From Xanthobacter autotrophicus (GTDB lineage Bacteria > Pseudomonadota > Alphaproteobacteria > Rhizobiales > Xanthobacteraceae): 64,000 nucleotides of DNA. The stretch lies in the NCBI RefSeq assembly GCF_030015065.1, contig NZ_JAIVFN010000001.1:1-64000 (forward strand), in the 5' to 3' direction. The position numbers and the translations under genes are program-made. Shown piece by piece: positions 6,085 through 44,048 of the stretch; position 1 is the stretch's first letter; each line of letters begins with the position of its first letter. Below the pieces are notes generated by a model. It was given only the letters and a program-made list of their open reading frames with translations, made no database searches and had not been told where the DNA came from.

Positions 6085-6978
6085 ATGGAACTTCGCACGC
6101 TCAAGGTTTTCGTGGAGGTGGTGCGGCAGGGCGGTTTCTCCCATGCGGCCAAGGCGCTGTTTTCAACGCAGCCCACCGTCTCGAAGGCGGTGAAGCAGCT
6201 GGAGGACGAACTGGGCGTGCCCCTGCTCGACCGCATCGGCCACCGAAGCCAGCTCACCGCGGCGGGCGAGATCGTCTATCGTCGCGCCCTGACCCTGCTG
6301 GCGGAGCGTGAGGGCCTCATCGCCGAGCTGGACGACCTGCGCGGCCTCAGGCGCGGCAGCCTGCGCCTCGGCCTGCCGCCGCTGGGCGCCAGCACCCTGT
6401 TCGCGCCGCTGTTCGCCATCTTCCGGGCGCGTTATCCGGGCATCGACATCCGCCTCACCGAACACGGCTCGAAGCGGCTGGAGGAAATGCTGCTGGAGGG
6501 CGAGGTGGAACTCGCCGGCTCGCTCATCCCGGTGCGCGATGTCTTCGACGCGCAACCGGTGCGGCGCGAGCCTCTGATGGCGGTGCTGCCCAAGGCTCAC
6601 CCCCTGGCGGGGGACGAAAGCACCGGCATCGCGGCGCTGGCGTCATCGCCCTTCATCCTGTTCGAGGGCGGCTTCGCCCTCAACCAGGTGCTTGAGGACG
6701 CCTGCGCCCGCAACGGCTTCGCCCCGCAGGTGGCGGCGCGCAGCGGGCAGATCGACTTCATCGTGGAACTGGCGGGGGCGGGCCTCGGCATAGCCTTCCT
6801 GCCCCGCACCATCGCCGAGCAGAGGGCGACACCCTCCGTCGCCCTCACCCGGCTCGACGAGCCGGGCACCGAATGGCAGATGGCCATCGTCTGGCGGCAG
6901 GGCAGCTACCTCTCCCACGCCGCGCGCGCGTGGCTGGAGCTCACGCGCGAGGTCTATGGTCCCGAGGGCTCCGGCTGA
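6085..6978 (+). CDS. LysR-family transcriptional regulator, probable regulator of lrgAB
   Basis: A 297-residue LysR regulator. The N-terminal winged helix-turn-helix spans about residues 1-60 (GGFSHAAKALFSTQPTVSKA is the recognition part), followed by the linker helix and a periplasmic-binding-protein-like effector domain from about 90. It starts at the ATG at 6085 and is divergent from lrgAB with about 165 bases between starts, the standard layout for a LysR protein controlling its neighbour. CidR-type regulators of lrg/cid genes belong to this family. The effector is unknown. Confidence 0.9.
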   Translation: MELRTLKVFVEVVRQGGFSHAAKALFSTQPTVSKAVKQLEDELGVPLLDRIGHRSQLTAAGEIVYRRALTLLAEREGLIAELDDLRGLRRGSLRLGLPPLGASTLFAPLFAIFRARYPGIDIRLTEHGSKRLEEMLLEGEVELAGSLIPVRDVFDAQPVRREPLMAVLPKAHPLAGDESTGIAALASSPFILFEGGFALNQVLEDACARNGFAPQVAARSGQIDFIVELAGAGLGIAFLPRTIAEQRATPSVALTRLDEPGTEWQMAIVWRQGSYLSHAARAWLELTREVYGPEGSG

Positions 6979-35340: not shown

Positions 35341-35374
35341 GAATCGACCTCGTGCAGATTGCACGCGAGGTTAA

Positions 35375-35418
35375 GCATTTTCGAGCGAAGTGGATACCGG
35401 TTCGCGTGAAGAAAACGC
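35375..35418. repeat. palindromic intergenic repeat, family B, copy 2
   Basis: Homologous to 16422-16466: outer arms GCATTTTC (35375-35382) and GAAAACGC (35411-35418), inner arms GCGAA (35385-35389) and TTCGC (35401-35405). It sits at the right edge of the caspase island, upstream of the small secreted protein gene. Confidence 0.7.
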
Positions 35419-38974: not shown

Positions 38975-41900
38975 TCACCACCGGCGCCTCGGGACCGAAA
39001 GACGCCTGGAGACCGATCTCGGCAGCATCGCCAGCAGCCGCGTGGCGAGCATGGGCCCGCCTTCCACCGCGATGGATGTGCGTGCAAGTGTGACGAGCAT
39101 CGGCCCTGGCGGTCCGCCACGCTGGTGCGGGGCATCGGCAAGGCCGAGGATGAATTCGTGACGACCGGGCTCGGCGGGAGCGGAAACGCTCATGCGCACC
39201 GTTGCCATGCCGCCGGGTGCCATGGGCGGCAGGGGCGTCGTCGAAACAGCGCCCCCGGGCGTGATCGGCCCGCCCTCGCGCAGCCAGGTGCCGGCCAGCA
39301 CGATGCCGGCGGCCTCGGTCCCGATCATGTCGTCGTCGAGATTGCGCACCGCCACATCGAGATGAACCCGCTCGCCGGGCCTGGCCGGAGACGGCGCGGC
39401 CTCCAGCCCGAGCTGTACGATCTCGTCCCAGCTCGCCCAGGGTCGCGGCCATCGCGCCAGCGCGTCGGCGATGTGTCGGGAGAGCGTCGACGCCAGCGCA
39501 CCGATATTGGCGGGCGTGTAGAGCTCGCCATAGGCGCCGTCAGTCTCCTCAAGGGCGAGGCTGGCGAAGCTGTCGCGCCAAAGCGGCACCGGGTCCTGCG
39601 TCGCAGCTTTCGGATTGAGCACGCTGTCGCGGCCATGAAGGACCAGCACGTCGCCGGGAAAGCGGAGCGGCTCCCCCGTCAGCTCGACCAGCATCAGCAG
39701 GGGGAGATCGCGGCCACGCCGCACCAGATGGCGCGCCATGGCCAGGGCGATCTCGGCCCCCTGGCACTGTCCCAGCAGAAGCACCGGCCCCGTCGGGCAC
39801 ATGGCCTGGACGTGCTGCACGTAGCGCTGGACCAGGGCCCGGATGACGGCCTTGTCCGATCGGCCGACCAGATGGGCCGAGCGGAAGGCATAAAGCGGCT
39901 GGTCGGCTCCGAGGGCCGCCGCCAGACCAACAGGCTCTTCCGCGCTGTTGAAGACGCAGAACAGCGGCGGCCTCGTGCCCGCCTCGTTCCAGGCGAGCAT
40001 CAGCCTGTCGTGCGAGACTCTCCTGCCCTCCCAGGTCTCGATGAAGGACGCCATCTTGCGCCACATCCCGCGCGACTGGGTGCGCGGCGGACCGGCCTGC
40101 CGGGGCGCGGGGCCGGAGCGGGCCTGCTCCACCAGCGCGCGCAGCGTGTCGAAGCGGGGATCGGCGAAGAAGGCCTCGATGGCGAACGGCTGTTCGATGA
40201 TCGCGTCCACCCCAGCCACCAGCGTCGCAGCGCGCAGCGAATCGCCACCGCACGCGAAGAAGTTGGCGCCGCGGTCGAAATCCGTGTCCAGATCCAGCAC
40301 GTCGCGCCACAGCGCGCTCAGGACCGCGTCGATGTCGCCATCGGGCCTGCCGCCCGCGGGATTGCGCGCAAGCGTTGCTCCGCCCTGATCTGCGGCACGG
40401 GCGGCCAGAGCCAGCCGATCCACCTTGCCGGTGGCCGTGAGGGGCCATTCGCGCGGGCGGACCGCCATGACCAGCGCCGGCGCGATGCCGAAGCGGCGGA
40501 CGAGCGATCGGCGGATATCGATGGTGCGCAGCTCCGGGCGCACCTCGTCCTCGCCGATCCCGACCGCGATCCCGAGCCGGTCGGTGGCGTCGGCGGTCCG
40601 ACGCAGGACGAAGGACACCGCGCGGCCGTCAAAGCCGGGGATGGATTGCAGATGCGTGTCGAAATCATCGAGGGCGAACTTGCGTCCCCCGATGACGAGG
40701 ACATGCTTCGCACGACCACGGAAGGCAAAGCCGCCGGGCCCGATGACGCCGAGATCGCCGGTCTTCCACCATCCATCCGCGCTCAGGCCCGCGCGGAACG
40801 CTTCCAGCTCTCCCCAATAGCCTGAAAACAGGGTCTGCGGCGCGCGCACCTCCACGTGCCCGACCTCTCCCGGCCGCGCCGGCGCGCCGCCATCGCCGAC
40901 AATCCGCAGCGAAACGCCTGCGGCGCAGCCGCCAAGGATGGGCGCGCCCGCATTGTCCAGCGGCGCGGTCGCCGGATCGACCCCGGCGAGGATATGGCTC
41001 GTCTCCGTGGTCCCGTAGCCGGCGCGCAGGACATCGGCGGCACCATGGCGCCGCAGCAGGGCATCGAGGCGGGCGGATACGGGACGGGTGACCGTCTCGC
41101 CCCCGAGGCCCACCACCCGCAGGGAGCGCAGATCGAATGCGGACGCGCTGCCGGCGAGGCTTTCCGTCAGGCGTGCCGCCATGGAGTTGGTCATCTGGAC
41201 GGACGTGATGGAAAAGCGCTCGATCGCCTCCAGGATCGCCGCCGGCCGGGCTGCGAGAAGCTGCGGCGACATCTGCGTCCAGCTCGCGAACTGAAGGAAG
41301 ACCGCGCGCTGGCCACTGACGCCTTCCTGCGGGAAGACGCCGAGGCAGTGGTCGCGCAGCCATGCCGGTGCGTAATTGGCCGGAAAATGCCGGGACACCA
41401 TCGCGCTGCGGCTTACCATGGCCAGCTTCTGCGCGCCGGTGGAGCCGGAGGTGGGGATGAGGCAGACGACCTCGTTCTCCTCCCCCACTTCGGCCATCTC
41501 CGCTTGCGTGTCGCCGACCTCCTCAAGCCGGACGACCGGCGCGCCGGGCCGCAGTGCGATCAGGCGGTCGAGGCCCGACGCGGGATCATCGGTGACGAAC
41601 ACCGGATCCCTGAGGCTGCCGACGAGCCGCGAGAGGGTCTCGTCCGCCGCGGTCCGGGCGACGCCTCCGAAGGGAATGACCGTGGCGCCCAGGCGCAGGC
41701 CGGCCCAGAACGCCGGGATGAAATCGAGAAGGTCTTCGGCCAGCAGGACAATATGGCGATCGGCTCCGGCGCCGGCGCCACGCAGGGCGGTGGCGATGCG
41801 CCCGGACCGTCGCCACGCGGCGGCGACCGTCTGCTCCACGACCCCGCCATCGGGCTGAAGACTGCGCAGGAGCGCGTCGGGCGACGCAGCGACGCGGCGG

Positions 41901-42001
41901 GCCAGGTTCCGGGTGACCGTCGCAGCCGCGTCGTCCGCGAGACTGCGCGCCGGACCGTTGAGAATTGCGACCTCCGGGGCCTGCTCAGGCCGCTGCAGCA
42001 T
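38975..42001 (-). CDS. single-module A-PCP-TE (NRPS-like) protein with C-terminal beta-sandwich
   Basis: A 1008-residue multidomain enzyme. An adenylation domain spans about 60-535: P-loop IPTSGSTGAQKLAM (182-195), GYGTTE (329-334), WKTGDLG (412-418) and TGKVDRL (524-530), all intact. A carrier domain follows with FFACGGDSL (phosphopantetheine on Ser588). A thioesterase-like alpha/beta-hydrolase covers about 680-880; its nucleophile elbow reads GQCQG, so Cys746 replaces the usual serine. The last 110 residues look like an Ig-type beta-sandwich. There is no condensation domain. The protein could activate one acid and load, cyclise or transfer it. Its start lies inside the end of the HExxH gene (17-base overlap), so the two are coupled. 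Confidence 0.85.
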   Translation of the reverse strand: MLQRPEQAPEVAILNGPARSLADDAAATVTRNLARRVAASPDALLRSLQPDGGVVEQTVAAAWRRSGRIATALRGAGAGADRHIVLLAEDLLDFIPAFWAGLRLGATVIPFGGVARTAADETLSRLVGSLRDPVFVTDDPASGLDRLIALRPGAPVVRLEEVGDTQAEMAEVGEENEVVCLIPTSGSTGAQKLAMVSRSAMVSRHFPANYAPAWLRDHCLGVFPQEGVSGQRAVFLQFASWTQMSPQLLAARPAAILEAIERFSITSVQMTNSMAARLTESLAGSASAFDLRSLRVVGLGGETVTRPVSARLDALLRRHGAADVLRAGYGTTETSHILAGVDPATAPLDNAGAPILGGCAAGVSLRIVGDGGAPARPGEVGHVEVRAPQTLFSGYWGELEAFRAGLSADGWWKTGDLGVIGPGGFAFRGRAKHVLVIGGRKFALDDFDTHLQSIPGFDGRAVSFVLRRTADATDRLGIAVGIGEDEVRPELRTIDIRRSLVRRFGIAPALVMAVRPREWPLTATGKVDRLALAARAADQGGATLARNPAGGRPDGDIDAVLSALWRDVLDLDTDFDRGANFFACGGDSLRAATLVAGVDAIIEQPFAIEAFFADPRFDTLRALVEQARSGPAPRQAGPPRTQSRGMWRKMASFIETWEGRRVSHDRLMLAWNEAGTRPPLFCVFNSAEEPVGLAAALGADQPLYAFRSAHLVGRSDKAVIRALVQRYVQHVQAMCPTGPVLLLGQCQGAEIALAMARHLVRRGRDLPLLMLVELTGEPLRFPGDVLVLHGRDSVLNPKAATQDPVPLWRDSFASLALEETDGAYGELYTPANIGALASTLSRHIADALARWPRPWASWDEIVQLGLEAAPSPARPGERVHLDVAVRNLDDDMIGTEAAGIVLAGTWLREGGPITPGGAVSTTPLPPMAPGGMATVRMSVSAPAEPGRHEFILGLADAPHQRGGPPGPMLVTLARTSIAVEGGPMLATRLLAMLPRSVSRRLSVPRRRW

Positions 42002-42980
42002 GGCTCATATAGTCGGCGGCCGCGCGCATCACCTCGTCTCCCAGAGGGGTGAGATCGGCAGCGCCGAAGACCACGCCGGCCCCATCGTCGAACCGCGATG
42101 CCAGATGCGCCAGGGTCTGTTCGATCTGCCGCCGGTCGAGGGCGGAGCCTCCCGGAGCGCCGCGGGCCAGCAGGCGACCGTAGAACAGATGCAGCCGCGA
42201 ACAGACGAAGGTGGCGTGGAACACGCCATCCATGGGCCGGGGATCGGAGCGCAGCGGCGAGCTGAAACGCTGCGAATCGGGATTGCGGACCAGAGGCTCC
42301 TCGTTGCTCAGCCCGAACAGCAGCAGGTGCGCGGCTTCGTGGACGAGGCTCTCGGCGATCTGCAGGGACGAGCGATGGATATCGACGTTCAGCGTCGCCG
42401 CGCCCCACAGCATGAGCGAGGAATCGCTGCCGAACGTGGCATCCGGGCTGAAGGGCGCCGCGCCGATGATCTGCACCACCAATGCGCGCACCTCCCTGCC
42501 GAGGTCGCTGTCCACGTGGTCGATGAGGGCGAGAGCCTCCTCCACATCCGACACGAATGTCTGCCATTGCGCGGCAAGACGACCGGCATCGAGCGGACCG
42601 ATCACCGGCCTTGCCTCGCCCGCATTCAGGAGACGGCAGATGCGTGCCGCATCCTCGCCCAGCTTTTCCTCGTTCAGGGGGACGAGTTCATGGCGCGCGT
42701 CCTGGGCCGCCAGGGTGATGATTCGGCGCCAGAGCCGAGCCGCTTCCTCGGGGCGGCCGGCCTTCAGCGCGAAGACCAGCTCGAAATAGCAGCCGAAGAC
42801 GCAGGGCTGGACGCGATGGTCTCTGACGTCGGCGAACAACCGCGCCGTTTCATCCGGCCCTGAGCCGAGCATTTGCCCGGTCTGCGCGAAGATGTGCTCC
42901 AGGCTCGACGCCAGCCTCAGCCGCGTTTTGCGATCCAGCTCTTCAATTCTGCTTTGGCCTTTTGGAAAGAATACCGACAC
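41985..42980 (-). CDS. HExxH-motif protein resembling aKG-HExxH-type peptide beta-hydroxylases
   Basis: A protein of about 331 residues. SLVHEAAHLLLFGLS carries HEAAH (residues 214-218 from the GTG at 42980), followed by a conserved-looking segment (SSPLRSDPRPMDGVFHATFV) matching the family called aKG-HExxH-type peptide beta-hydroxylase, or HExxH motif-containing putative peptide modification protein. Such enzymes use iron and 2-oxoglutarate to hydroxylate ribosomal peptides; despite the motif they are not peptidases. The N-terminal 200 residues are helical. The start is uncertain (GTG at 42980 or 43037). It is divergent from the candidate precursor peptide gene and upstream of the A-PCP-TE gene. 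Confidence 0.72.
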   Translation of the reverse strand: MSVFFPKGQSRIEELDRKTRLRLASSLEHIFAQTGQMLGSGPDETARLFADVRDHRVQPCVFGCYFELVFALKAGRPEEAARLWRRIITLAAQDARHELVPLNEEKLGEDAARICRLLNAGEARPVIGPLDAGRLAAQWQTFVSDVEEALALIDHVDSDLGREVRALVVQIIGAAPFSPDATFGSDSSLMLWGAATLNVDIHRSSLQIAESLVHEAAHLLLFGLSNEEPLVRNPDSQRFSSPLRSDPRPMDGVFHATFVCSRLHLFYGRLLARGAPGGSALDRRQIEQTLAHLASRFDDGAGVVFGAADLTPLGDEVMRAAADYMSHAAAA

Positions 42981-43016
42981 AGAAAAGCTCACCCTTTTTA
43001 AGCTTAAGAGAACAGA

Positions 43017-43036
43017 TGTTGTCACAAAGGACAACA
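43017..43036. promoter_or_regulatory. candidate operator between the hydroxylase and the peptide gene
   Basis: TGTTGTC (43017-43023) and GACAACA (43030-43036) are perfect inverted arms with a 6-base spacer. They lie between the divergent hydroxylase and peptide genes, 37 bases upstream of the GTG at 42980. If translation began at 43037 the palindrome would be coding, so it mildly supports the shorter start. Confidence 0.35.
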
Positions 43037-43078
43037 CCGCTCTGCGATCGGGGCGGTTTCACCGTAGCAGGCCTTCCA

Positions 43079-43107
43079 TTGACCGTCGAGATACGCTCCC
43101 TTATGGA
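43079..43107 (+). promoter_or_regulatory. possible sigma-70 promoter of the peptide gene
   Basis: TTGACC (43079-43084) matches the -35 box in 5 of 6 positions. A 17-base spacer leads to TATGGA (43102-43107), a weak -10 box. It lies 76 bases before the peptide start at 43183. Confidence 0.3.
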
Positions 43108-43182
43108 AATAAATGGCGAGAGCCGTAATCGCATGACGCGGTATTATTTTAGGCCGCCTCACGAATGGGCAAGGAGGGCGAG

Positions 43183-43425
43183 ATGACCAAGTCTTCGATC
43201 GGGACGACCAACGCCGGGTTCACCGCAAATCTGGATGAAGCCATGCTTTTCGGCTTTGATCGGCTCCTCGGCGCGCGAGACGCGGAAGCTGCGGGCGTCG
43301 CCCTGAACAAGCGGGCTGAAACGCCGCCTTCCGACGCGATCACGAACGTCGCCGGCATCGCCTTCAACAAGCGTGGCGAAGGCCCGGTCCAGAAGCCGGC
43401 CCAGTCTCGCGACAACCAGTCCTGA
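43183..43425 (+). CDS. candidate modified-peptide precursor with two repeated core motifs
   Basis: An 80-residue peptide. The ATG at 43183 is fixed by a perfect Shine-Dalgarno AAGGAGGG at 43171-43178, five bases upstream; the ATG at 43165 would place that site inside the gene. The first 34 residues look like a leader (helix LDEAMLFGFDRLLGARDAE). Then AAGVALNKRAE (36-46) and VAGIAFNKRGE (56-66) repeat with a 20-residue period, and a polar tail ends it. There are no cysteines. The gene is divergent from the HExxH hydroxylase gene and followed at once by a strong hairpin. Repeated short motifs beside a peptide-modifying enzyme suggest a RiPP precursor, possibly hydroxylated on the Asn or neighbouring residues and cleaved at KR. 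I know no family for it. Confidence 0.65.
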   Translation: MTKSSIGTTNAGFTANLDEAMLFGFDRLLGARDAEAAGVALNKRAETPPSDAITNVAGIAFNKRGEGPVQKPAQSRDNQS

Positions 43426-43430
43426 ATTCA

Positions 43431-43464
43431 AAGCCTTCCCAGGCCGTGGCGTCTGGGAAGGCTT
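43431..43464 (+). terminator. strong hairpin terminator after the peptide gene
   Basis: AAGCCTTCCCAG (43431-43442) and CTGGGAAGGCTT (43453-43464) form a perfect 12-bp stem with a 10-base loop, 5 bases after the peptide stop. A T-run is missing, but the stem is the strongest in this region. It could also serve the convergent GNAT gene. Confidence 0.75.
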
Positions 43465-43487
43465 GCCCGTGCGCGCTTGCGGCCGGC

Positions 43488-44048
43488 TCAGCAGGTGGAG
43501 AGCGGCAGCGGCGGCGGCGGGGTTGTGGATCCGGGACCGAGAGAGCGCTGCACCATCACGCTGTCGGACCAGCGGCCATAGCGATAGGCGACCCCCGGCA
43601 GGAGCCCCACGCGCACGAAGCCGAACCGCTCGTGCAAGGTGAGCGAGGCTTTGTTGTCGGCATCAATATAGCCGATCATCTGACGGAAGCCCGCCGCGGC
43701 GCAGGCGTCGATCAGCCCTTGCATGAGATGGCGGCCGATGCCCTGGCCGAGATGCTCGTGGTGCACATAGATCGAGTGCTTGACGCTGTAGCGGTAGGCC
43801 GGCCGCTTGCGGAACAGCACCACATAGGCATAGCCCACCACCTCCTCGCCGCGGAGCGCGACGATGTGGGGAAACCGGCGGCTCTTGAAATTCTTGCGGC
43901 GCTCGCGCAAGTCGTCGGGCTGCGGCGTGTCGCCGTCGTCCACGCCCTCCTCGACACCACGGCGGATGTGGCGGCGATAGATCGCCAGCATGGCATCCAC
44001 GTCGGAATCCCGCGAGGGCCGAAGGATGACGGCTTGCTCCTGCTCCAT
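43488..44048 (-). CDS. GNAT family N-acetyltransferase (phosphinothricin acetyltransferase-like)
   Basis: A 186-residue acetyltransferase. VILRPSRDSDVDAMLAIYRRH begins the domain, HEHLGQGIGRHLMQGLI holds the acetyl-CoA pyrophosphate loop, and DADNKASLTLHERFGFVRVG is the C-terminal signature of the PAT/bar-like subgroup. Substrates in that subgroup are amino-acid analogues such as methionine sulfoximine. It lies 23 bases after the amino-acid decarboxylase gene on the same strand, so a diamine or amino-acid substrate is possible but unproven. Confidence 0.88.
   Translation of the reverse strand: MEQEQAVILRPSRDSDVDAMLAIYRRHIRRGVEEGVDDGDTPQPDDLRERRKNFKSRRFPHIVALRGEEVVGYAYVVLFRKRPAYRYSVKHSIYVHHEHLGQGIGRHLMQGLIDACAAAGFRQMIGYIDADNKASLTLHERFGFVRVGLLPGVAYRYGRWSDSVMVQRSLGPGSTTPPPPLPLSTC

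Follow-up and report, generated by a model that had tools for sequence, protein, structure and literature searches.

The alpha-ketoglutarate-dependent HExxH (aKG-HExxH) enzymes form a young family, of which few substrates have been characterised; the reported activities of its members are hydroxylation of Asp, His, Gln, Phe or Pro residues in ribosomal peptides and oxidative cleavage of the backbone (PMC12636437, PMC13060819), the largest cluster of their similarity network being formed by fusions to radical S-adenosylmethionine (SAM) proteins (PMC12636437). In addition, the selidamide phaeornamide, in which a hydroxyornithine is acylated by a GNAT, provides a precedent for hydroxylation followed by acylation on a basic side chain (PMC9505594). 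Statements on these papers, here and below, refer to the portions of their text that were available. In the present work, the first 64,000 nucleotides of contig NZ_JAIVFN010000001.1 of Xanthobacter autotrophicus (GCF_030015065.1), hereafter the window, were analysed, in which an open reading frame (ORF) for an 80-aa peptide is divergent from the genes of an aKG-HExxH protein and of a protein with adenylation, peptidyl carrier and thioesterase domains (A-PCP-TE). Because this trio recurs in related bacteria together with the same peptide signature, the peptide very probably serves as substrate for a peptide-modification pathway that has not been described. In the open-access literature (titles and abstract openings, most subscription papers falling outside the search), no description of the trio was found. 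The features of the locus are the following:

43183..43425, forward strand: putative precursor peptide gene, 80 aa plus stop codon, ATG start (basis: ORF, homologues at locus L031 described below, profile match)
43171..43177, forward strand: Shine-Dalgarno sequence AAGGAGG, 5 nt upstream of the ATG (read from the sequence)
43225..43260, forward strand: putative leader motif ANLDEAMLFGFD, residues 15-26 (kept in the L031 peptides; leader-only model)
43291..43326, forward strand: putative core repeat 1, AGVALNKRAETP, residues 37-48 (direct repeat D1; aligned cores)
43351..43386, forward strand: putative core repeat 2, AGIAFNKRGEGP, residues 57-68 (direct repeat D1; NKRGEGP identical across the three aligned peptides)
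41985..42992, reverse strand: aKG-HExxH protein (TIGR04267), start uncertain (GTG at 42992, or 43037 upstream)
42327..42341, reverse strand: HEAAH motif of the HExxH protein (located in the sequence)
38975..42001, reverse strand: A-PCP-TE protein, 1008 aa, with a C-terminal extension (Pfam AMP-binding, PP-binding and Thioesterase; alignment)
Residues 744-748 of the A-PCP-TE protein, reverse strand: thioesterase (TE) nucleophile motif GQCQG (alignment, sequence position)
43017..43036, no strand: palindrome TGTTGTC-N6-GACAACA between the divergent genes (sequence; stem-loop scan)
43431..43464, forward strand: hairpin 3' of the peptide gene (inverted repeat I1: perfect 12-bp stem, 10-nt loop, without T tract)

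The original prediction had described a peptide of 80 residues without Cys, preceded by a perfect Shine-Dalgarno sequence and carrying two repeats 20 residues apart, as well as a divergent operon of HExxH and A-PCP-TE genes with a palindrome in the gap. All the peptide features were found again in the sequence, the repeated motif being AG[VI]A[LF]NKR, and the gene arrangement was confirmed by profiles and coordinates: the two enzyme genes overlap by 17 nt, and 190 nt separate the peptide gene from the HExxH gene, with the palindrome possibly serving as an operator. At the DNA level, the repeats were two 30-nt copies with a spacing of 60 nt and 77% identity. The best internal 12-residue match of the peptide comprised 8 of the 12 positions, a value reached by none of 2,000 shuffled sequences (two reached 7). 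As 8 of 12 was also attained by one other among the 315 small stop-to-stop ORFs in this GC-rich stretch, internal repetition alone is modest evidence, and conservation in relatives is the stronger argument for a real peptide gene. Regarding the hairpin, which had been proposed as the gene's own terminator, the perfect stem was indeed present, whereas the T tract was missing and the structure did not appear in the output of a terminator scan that accepts loops of 3-8 nt only; a terminator role is unproven. An Rfam scan of positions 42500-43700 gave no match, and no Pfam or NCBIfam model matched the peptide at E ≤ 1.

A genome scan with the HExxH protein yielded three loci, the best being L031, from a Hyphomicrobiales metagenome-assembled genome (MAG), with an HExxH protein 55% identical to that of the window. 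There, the HExxH gene is followed by an A-PCP protein, the TE part lying in another frame within a stretch that holds N, and two ORFs are divergent from HExxH, reading ...TADLNDAELLGFEHIE...AVGLALNKRGESGEGPVII... and ...VADLDNAELLGFEWLE...AIALAFNKRGLSGEGPIIK. Common to these two peptides and that of the window are a leader of the form A-x-L-x-x-A-x-L-x-G-F (pattern DL[DN]xAELLGFE) and a core of the form N-K-R-G...E-G-P (pattern NKRG..GEGP). A profile of the three peptides, which matched the window peptide with an E-value of 1.6e-24 (this peptide being part of the alignment), gave matches at E ≤ 0.05 in 4 of 248 genomes sampled from the family of L031's genome. Two of the four were real by inspection, namely L031's own genome and genome G938 (E 2.7e-9), whose peptide, at locus L063, reads ...ELDDTKLLGFEQVE...AIGLVFNKRGELPSDRRLK.... 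This locus holds three HExxH genes and two A-PCP-TE genes, and before the second HExxH/A-PCP-TE pair lies another peptide of 59 aa (L063:8034-8213, reverse strand), ending in CNKIGTECCCCC, with a five-Cys tail. Moreover, two tandem peptides, ...ELDLSRLVGFD...LLSKVGE[LI]P..., were found 34 nt before the HExxH/A-PCP-TE pair of locus L032 (a Bauldia MAG), and one peptide with two LGRLFSKRG repeats beside that of locus L077. In the class sample, the three-peptide profile matched in 3 of 384 other genomes at E ≤ 0.05, each time within a longer ORF of another kind, and over the genomes of the HExxH relatives it found peptides only in that of L031; these negatives are weak, because the profile is insensitive and missed the peptides that came to light afterwards in L032 and at other loci. 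An NCBIfam scan of nine of the relatives' peptides gave no model at cut-off. In L031, a further small ORF with three EEGP repeats (...MVKTEEGPTMVRTEEGPAMVRTEEGPV), in which the leader motif was not seen, lies between the two precursors and HExxH (6592-6813, reverse strand).

A homologous small gene beside other HExxH/A-PCP-TE pairs, as expected from the original prediction, was thus found at L031, L032, L063 (twice) and L077; the repeats proved to be conserved as an NKR-type core, and their number varied from one to three among the relatives. The conservation of both this core and the N-terminal leader motif supports the earlier assignment of the repeats as cores and of the N-terminal part as a leader. 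A Lys residue was present in all ten aligned cores (five genomes), preceded by N or S and followed by x-G in nine of them and by x-A in repeat 1 of the window, although this count is partly a matter of choice, because the cores were hand-picked around the NK/SK motif; an unforced alignment of seven peptides placed the same Lys in one column. At the level of sequence, the peptide family, its leader, its core and the gene linkage are established. A chance reading frame or a remnant would fit the search of 14 genomes of the genus, where only the own match was significant (others, E 0.06-0.92) and no significant homologue occurred in the 13 other genomes, as well as the equal internal match of one other small ORF; however, this explanation appears largely refuted by the conservation of leader and core in L031 and G938, together with the strong Shine-Dalgarno sequence, and is hardly credible.

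The HExxH protein of the window scored 111 bits against the TIGR04267 model mod_HExxH (curated cut-off, 40) and was the sole member found in its own genome. The HExxH family profile matched ChlH with an E-value of 1.6e-9, the match spanning both the HExxH and the P-x-R-x-D-x-RP segments, and the window protein carries HEAAH and SPLRSDPRP, aligned to ChlH. For a structure model built from four sequences (mean pLDDT 70), the PDB matches at E ≤ 0.001 were four chains of 8s5f only (the HExxH domain of ChlB), with a probability of 1.00, TM-scores of 0.54-0.57 and an rmsd above 8 Å. By profile, motif and fold, the enzyme is of the same family as those of the aKG-HExxH pathways (TIGR04267/IPR026337: ChlB, BpmH, PflC/PosC and PesO), with which the locus also shares a short precursor, encoded next to the enzyme and bearing its recognition part at the N-terminus. 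In contrast to these pathways, the window HExxH protein is stand-alone, without a radical SAM fusion, a scan of five window proteins revealed no MNIO, the leader and core differ from those in the available descriptions, and the partner is an A-PCP-TE. A leader, a core and a partner enzyme are now proposed for a stand-alone HExxH branch, for which no substrates were found in the available portions of the papers, and its chemistry is thereby open to simple co-expression tests.

It is highly probable that the HExxH enzyme has this peptide as its substrate. A role as a zincin-type protease cutting the peptide, or as an enzyme of oxidative backbone cleavage, would have a parallel in PflC, which cleaves its precursor by oxidation and, if the leader is missing, is also capable of hydrolysing it (PMC12636437), but the best profile and fold matches were to the hydroxylase domain of ChlB/ChlH, and the ARMD cleavage motif named for PflA is not in the peptide, so that cleavage is very improbable.

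The peptides of the wider family were surveyed in 26 stretches around HExxH genes, 25 of which were distinct (L032 being the same as L034), and 4,580 small ORFs were scored. The first model comprised seven peptides (one from the window and two each from L031, L032 and L063). At six loci outside it (L077, L047, L033, L039, L078 and L081), an ORF beside HExxH scored 11.7-27.6 bits, compared with a maximum of 6.1 bits, save for one L051 ORF, among 6,339 controls (818 window ORFs away from the locus, 4,580 reversed ORFs and 941 ORFs from 17 other loci). After these six were added, a second round gave 22.4 bits for L080, 13.4 for L079, 12.8 for L038, 11.3 for L037 and 9.6 for L036, the controls staying at or below 7.0 bits, again save for L051. 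The L051 ORF, antisense to a longer one, had scores of 17.5, 18.6 and 21.0 bits, the first two from the first and second rounds; the scores of the 17 control loci are biased upward, because the peptide search itself had fetched those loci, L051 included. A leader-only model likewise set the 13 chosen peptides apart from all controls except L051, the second-round and leader-only scores of peptides inside those models not being independent.

Beyond the loci of the model set, a peptide of similar plan that outscored the controls was present beside HExxH at 11 loci, the common plan being L-D-x-x-[KR]-L-[LF]-G-F close to the N-terminus, followed towards the C-terminus by at least one K-x-G type unit; L040 and L046 were assigned to this plan only by visual inspection. 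In L037, a non-adjacent ORF scored higher (12.3 bits) than the adjacent one (11.3). In round one, L037, L082 and L038 also gave ORFs just over the control maximum (6.2-6.9 bits), which were not counted. The placed peptides lie upstream of HExxH, on the same strand for 16 of the 17 tabulated genes and divergent in L031, as in the window (some ends being approximate). Peptide assignments are weaker outside the A-PCP-TE group than inside it. Another multi-copy, precursor-like family was observed in front of HExxH at L041:7765-8746 and L043:7947-8657 (forward strand), where several small ORFs in tandem contain LFGF and an ARR[GA] motif and end in an acidic tail.

A full A-PCP-TE adjoins HExxH in five genomes and six copies: the window, L031 (interrupted), L032, L063 (two) and L077. 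The AMP-binding, PP-binding and Thioesterase domains all exceeded their Pfam cut-offs in L063 10982-13501 and L077, as in the window, where Thioesterase did so barely (27.4 vs 26.4 bits); Thioesterase was under its cut-off in L032 and L063 4142-7027. L047 gave an A-domain match only, and in L082 an AMP-binding protein adjoins HExxH, with a separate TE-like ORF. The closest solved chains to the window A domain were those of McyG and similar adenylation domains, followed by acyl- and aryl-acid ligases, and the AA-adenyl-dom model gave 89 bits, far under its cut-off of 317.

In the proposed pathway, the N-terminal part with ANLDEAMLFGFD would act as the recognition leader, the two AGxAxNKRxExP repeats would be the core units, and the divergent gene pair would encode the maturation enzymes. 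Guided by the leader, the HExxH enzyme would hydroxylate core residues with Fe(II) and 2-oxoglutarate, while the A-PCP-TE would activate a carboxylic or amino acid and hold it on its carrier domain, from which the Cys-type TE domain would transfer it to the peptide; the most plausible acceptor is the side-chain amine of the Lys conserved in the core. This logic, hydroxylation and then acylation of a basic side chain, is that of the selidamides (PMC9505594), in which, in contrast, a GNAT acylates (hydroxy)ornithine or Lys of an NHLP-family precursor, whereas the carrier here is the A-PCP-TE and the neighbouring GNAT of the window belongs to the genus-conserved background, not to the cluster. 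With the target residue left open, a ribosomally synthesized and post-translationally modified peptide (RiPP) precursor that is hydroxylated by HExxH and acylated by the A-PCP-TE has about an even chance of being correct. Whether the A-PCP-TE also acts on the peptide is, taken by itself, equally balanced; if it does, ribosomal peptides would be joined to carrier-protein chemistry, with a possible tool for site-specific peptide acylation.

The TE nucleophile is Cys in all six copies (GQCQG in the window, AHCQG in L031), and catalytic-Cys TEs close a beta-lactone or beta-lactam in obafluorin and sulfazecin synthesis (PMC6668435, PMC11298585). With a beta-hydroxylase gene adjoining the A-PCP-TE, the TE might instead close a ring on the HExxH-hydroxylated peptide, such as a strained lactone or lactam on the hydroxylated unit, and Lys would not be acylated. 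The window protein indeed shares its A, PCP and TE domains and Cys nucleophile with the one-module nonribosomal peptide synthetase (NRPS) termini of ObiF and SulM, but differs from them in lacking a condensation (C) domain and in being linked to a ribosomal peptide. Moreover, in the known cases the substrate sits on the same NRPS carrier, whereas in the present case the peptide itself would need to be activated by the A domain, and ring closure would leave the core Lys without a role; it is considered improbable. Adenylation-carrier proteins also act as platforms for amino-acid hydroxylation in other pathways. Together with the 17-nt overlap of the two genes, this would agree with a separate small molecule made on the carrier by HExxH and A-PCP-TE, the peptide being a substrate of something else or acting as a regulator. 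However, a leader-type peptide stays the neighbour of HExxH even where the A-PCP-TE is missing, and the characterised TIGR04267 members act on peptides (PMC12636437, PMC13060819), so that little probability is given to this alternative.

A second kind of partner was found at ten of the 25 other HExxH loci, where a gene family of about 320-350 aa, ending in an E-x-NTNP motif, lies near HExxH and is divergent:

Loci L033, L035, L036, L038, L039, L041, L043, L079, L080 and L081: ATP-grasp-like family (alignment A4)

A full A-PCP-TE is lacking at all ten. The best PDB profile match of the family was D-Ala-D-Ala ligase (E 0.012), the members scanned had almost no Pfam or NCBIfam match, and one of the three scanned with Pfam matched Dala_Dala_lig_C at 14.2 bits, under the cut-off of 24; the family is assigned to ATP-grasp tentatively. 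In its repeated cores and in the ATP-grasp-like neighbour of ten HExxH relatives, the system resembles graspetides and multi-core ATP-grasp RiPPs, from which it differs in that no ATP-grasp family was found by Pfam and NCBIfam scans of the five window proteins, which did not include the A4 profile, and in that the assignment in the relatives is tentative. Since ten loci have the ATP-grasp-like partner instead, the A-PCP-TE is not needed for HExxH function generally, which would suit an RiPP modified by HExxH alone, the A-PCP-TE being a neighbour without a role on the peptide. Against this stand the recurrence of the adjacent HExxH/A-PCP-TE pair in the five genomes given above, with overlapping genes in the window, L031 and L063, and the possibility that the ATP-grasp-like gene would be a functional stand-in for the A-PCP-TE; modification by HExxH alone is unlikely.

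Several points weigh against the proposed hydroxylation and acylation of the peptide, of which every chemical step, the order of the steps, the acyl group and the target residue are inferred. The HExxH enzyme could hydroxylate a PCP-bound amino acid rather than the peptide, and the substrate of the A domain is not predictable here. At the presumed catalytic His of four aligned relatives, the window TE has a Tyr (residue 824 region, DGAYG at 821), and it may therefore be slow or inactive. No C domain or acyltransferase was found that would obviously deliver the unit to the peptide, and a scan of five window proteins revealed no exporter or peptidase; a C39-peptidase ABC transporter occurs near HExxH in L045, a locus without a peptide candidate. 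Furthermore, six of the 25 HExxH loci (L035, L042, L044, L045, L048 and L083) had no peptide above the controls, the HExxH match of L048 being weak and partial; L082 had a weak candidate only, and the multi-copy peptides of L041 and L043 were unlike the others and were not separated from noise by the model.

In two genomes, precursors are fused behind the core to Peptidase_S74, the endosialidase chaperone domain (L031:5637-6089, reverse strand, and L063:9442-9873, forward strand), with Pfam scores of 26.1 and 30.3 bits, respectively (cut-off, 22). In this region, both match phage structural-protein families, and the L063 peptide had no match among PDB sequences. The S74 domain opens with SDRRLK directly after the core. 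In endosialidases, this chaperone domain self-cleaves at such a Ser via a Ser-Lys dyad, and, if the same holds here, self-cleavage would define the C-terminus of the core. The most detailed version of the pathway, in which the nonribosomal-type module decorates the core Lys with an acyl or aminoacyl group, HExxH hydroxylates, an ATP-grasp-like ligase is the equivalent in related pathways and S74 self-cleavage sets the core C-terminus in two genomes, is proposed only tentatively and is more doubtful than its general form.

Among the 14 genomes of the genus, HExxH was found in that of the window and was absent from the 13 others. In the wider samples, it was present in 14 of 397 genomes of the order, 2 of 248 of L031's family and 8 of 398 of the phylum, counts that include the own genome of the window or of L031. 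No HExxH was found in the viral contigs searched, and the peptide search of plasmids gave no match. Of four plasmid matches (H1-H4), the two inspected were rejected because their architecture differs: H4 (Methylomagnum) is an NRPS of many domains in another gene neighbourhood, and H2 comes from Xenorhabdus. The neighbouring GNAT was likewise rejected as the pathway acyltransferase, being 78-92% identical in six other genomes of the genus without HExxH; it resembles ArsN1-type acetyltransferases, under their cut-offs.

Regarding the genomic setting, DNA similarity in three other genomes of the genus runs from 43483 or 43484 rightward at 91%:

43483, no strand: right boundary of a segment that other species of the genus do not share (similarity to three genus genomes starts at 43483/43484)

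Four genomes were searched for the left flank, from 30000 to about 38760: three carry it at another place, and the fourth gave no match save for a short dispersed repeat. The cassette thus sits between two synteny blocks, at a junction (43483 and about 38760) that looks as if the cassette had been inserted or left at a rearrangement. A dispersed intergenic repeat of some 45 nt, at about 35373-35418 of the window, is present in numerous, almost identical copies in further genomes of the genus.

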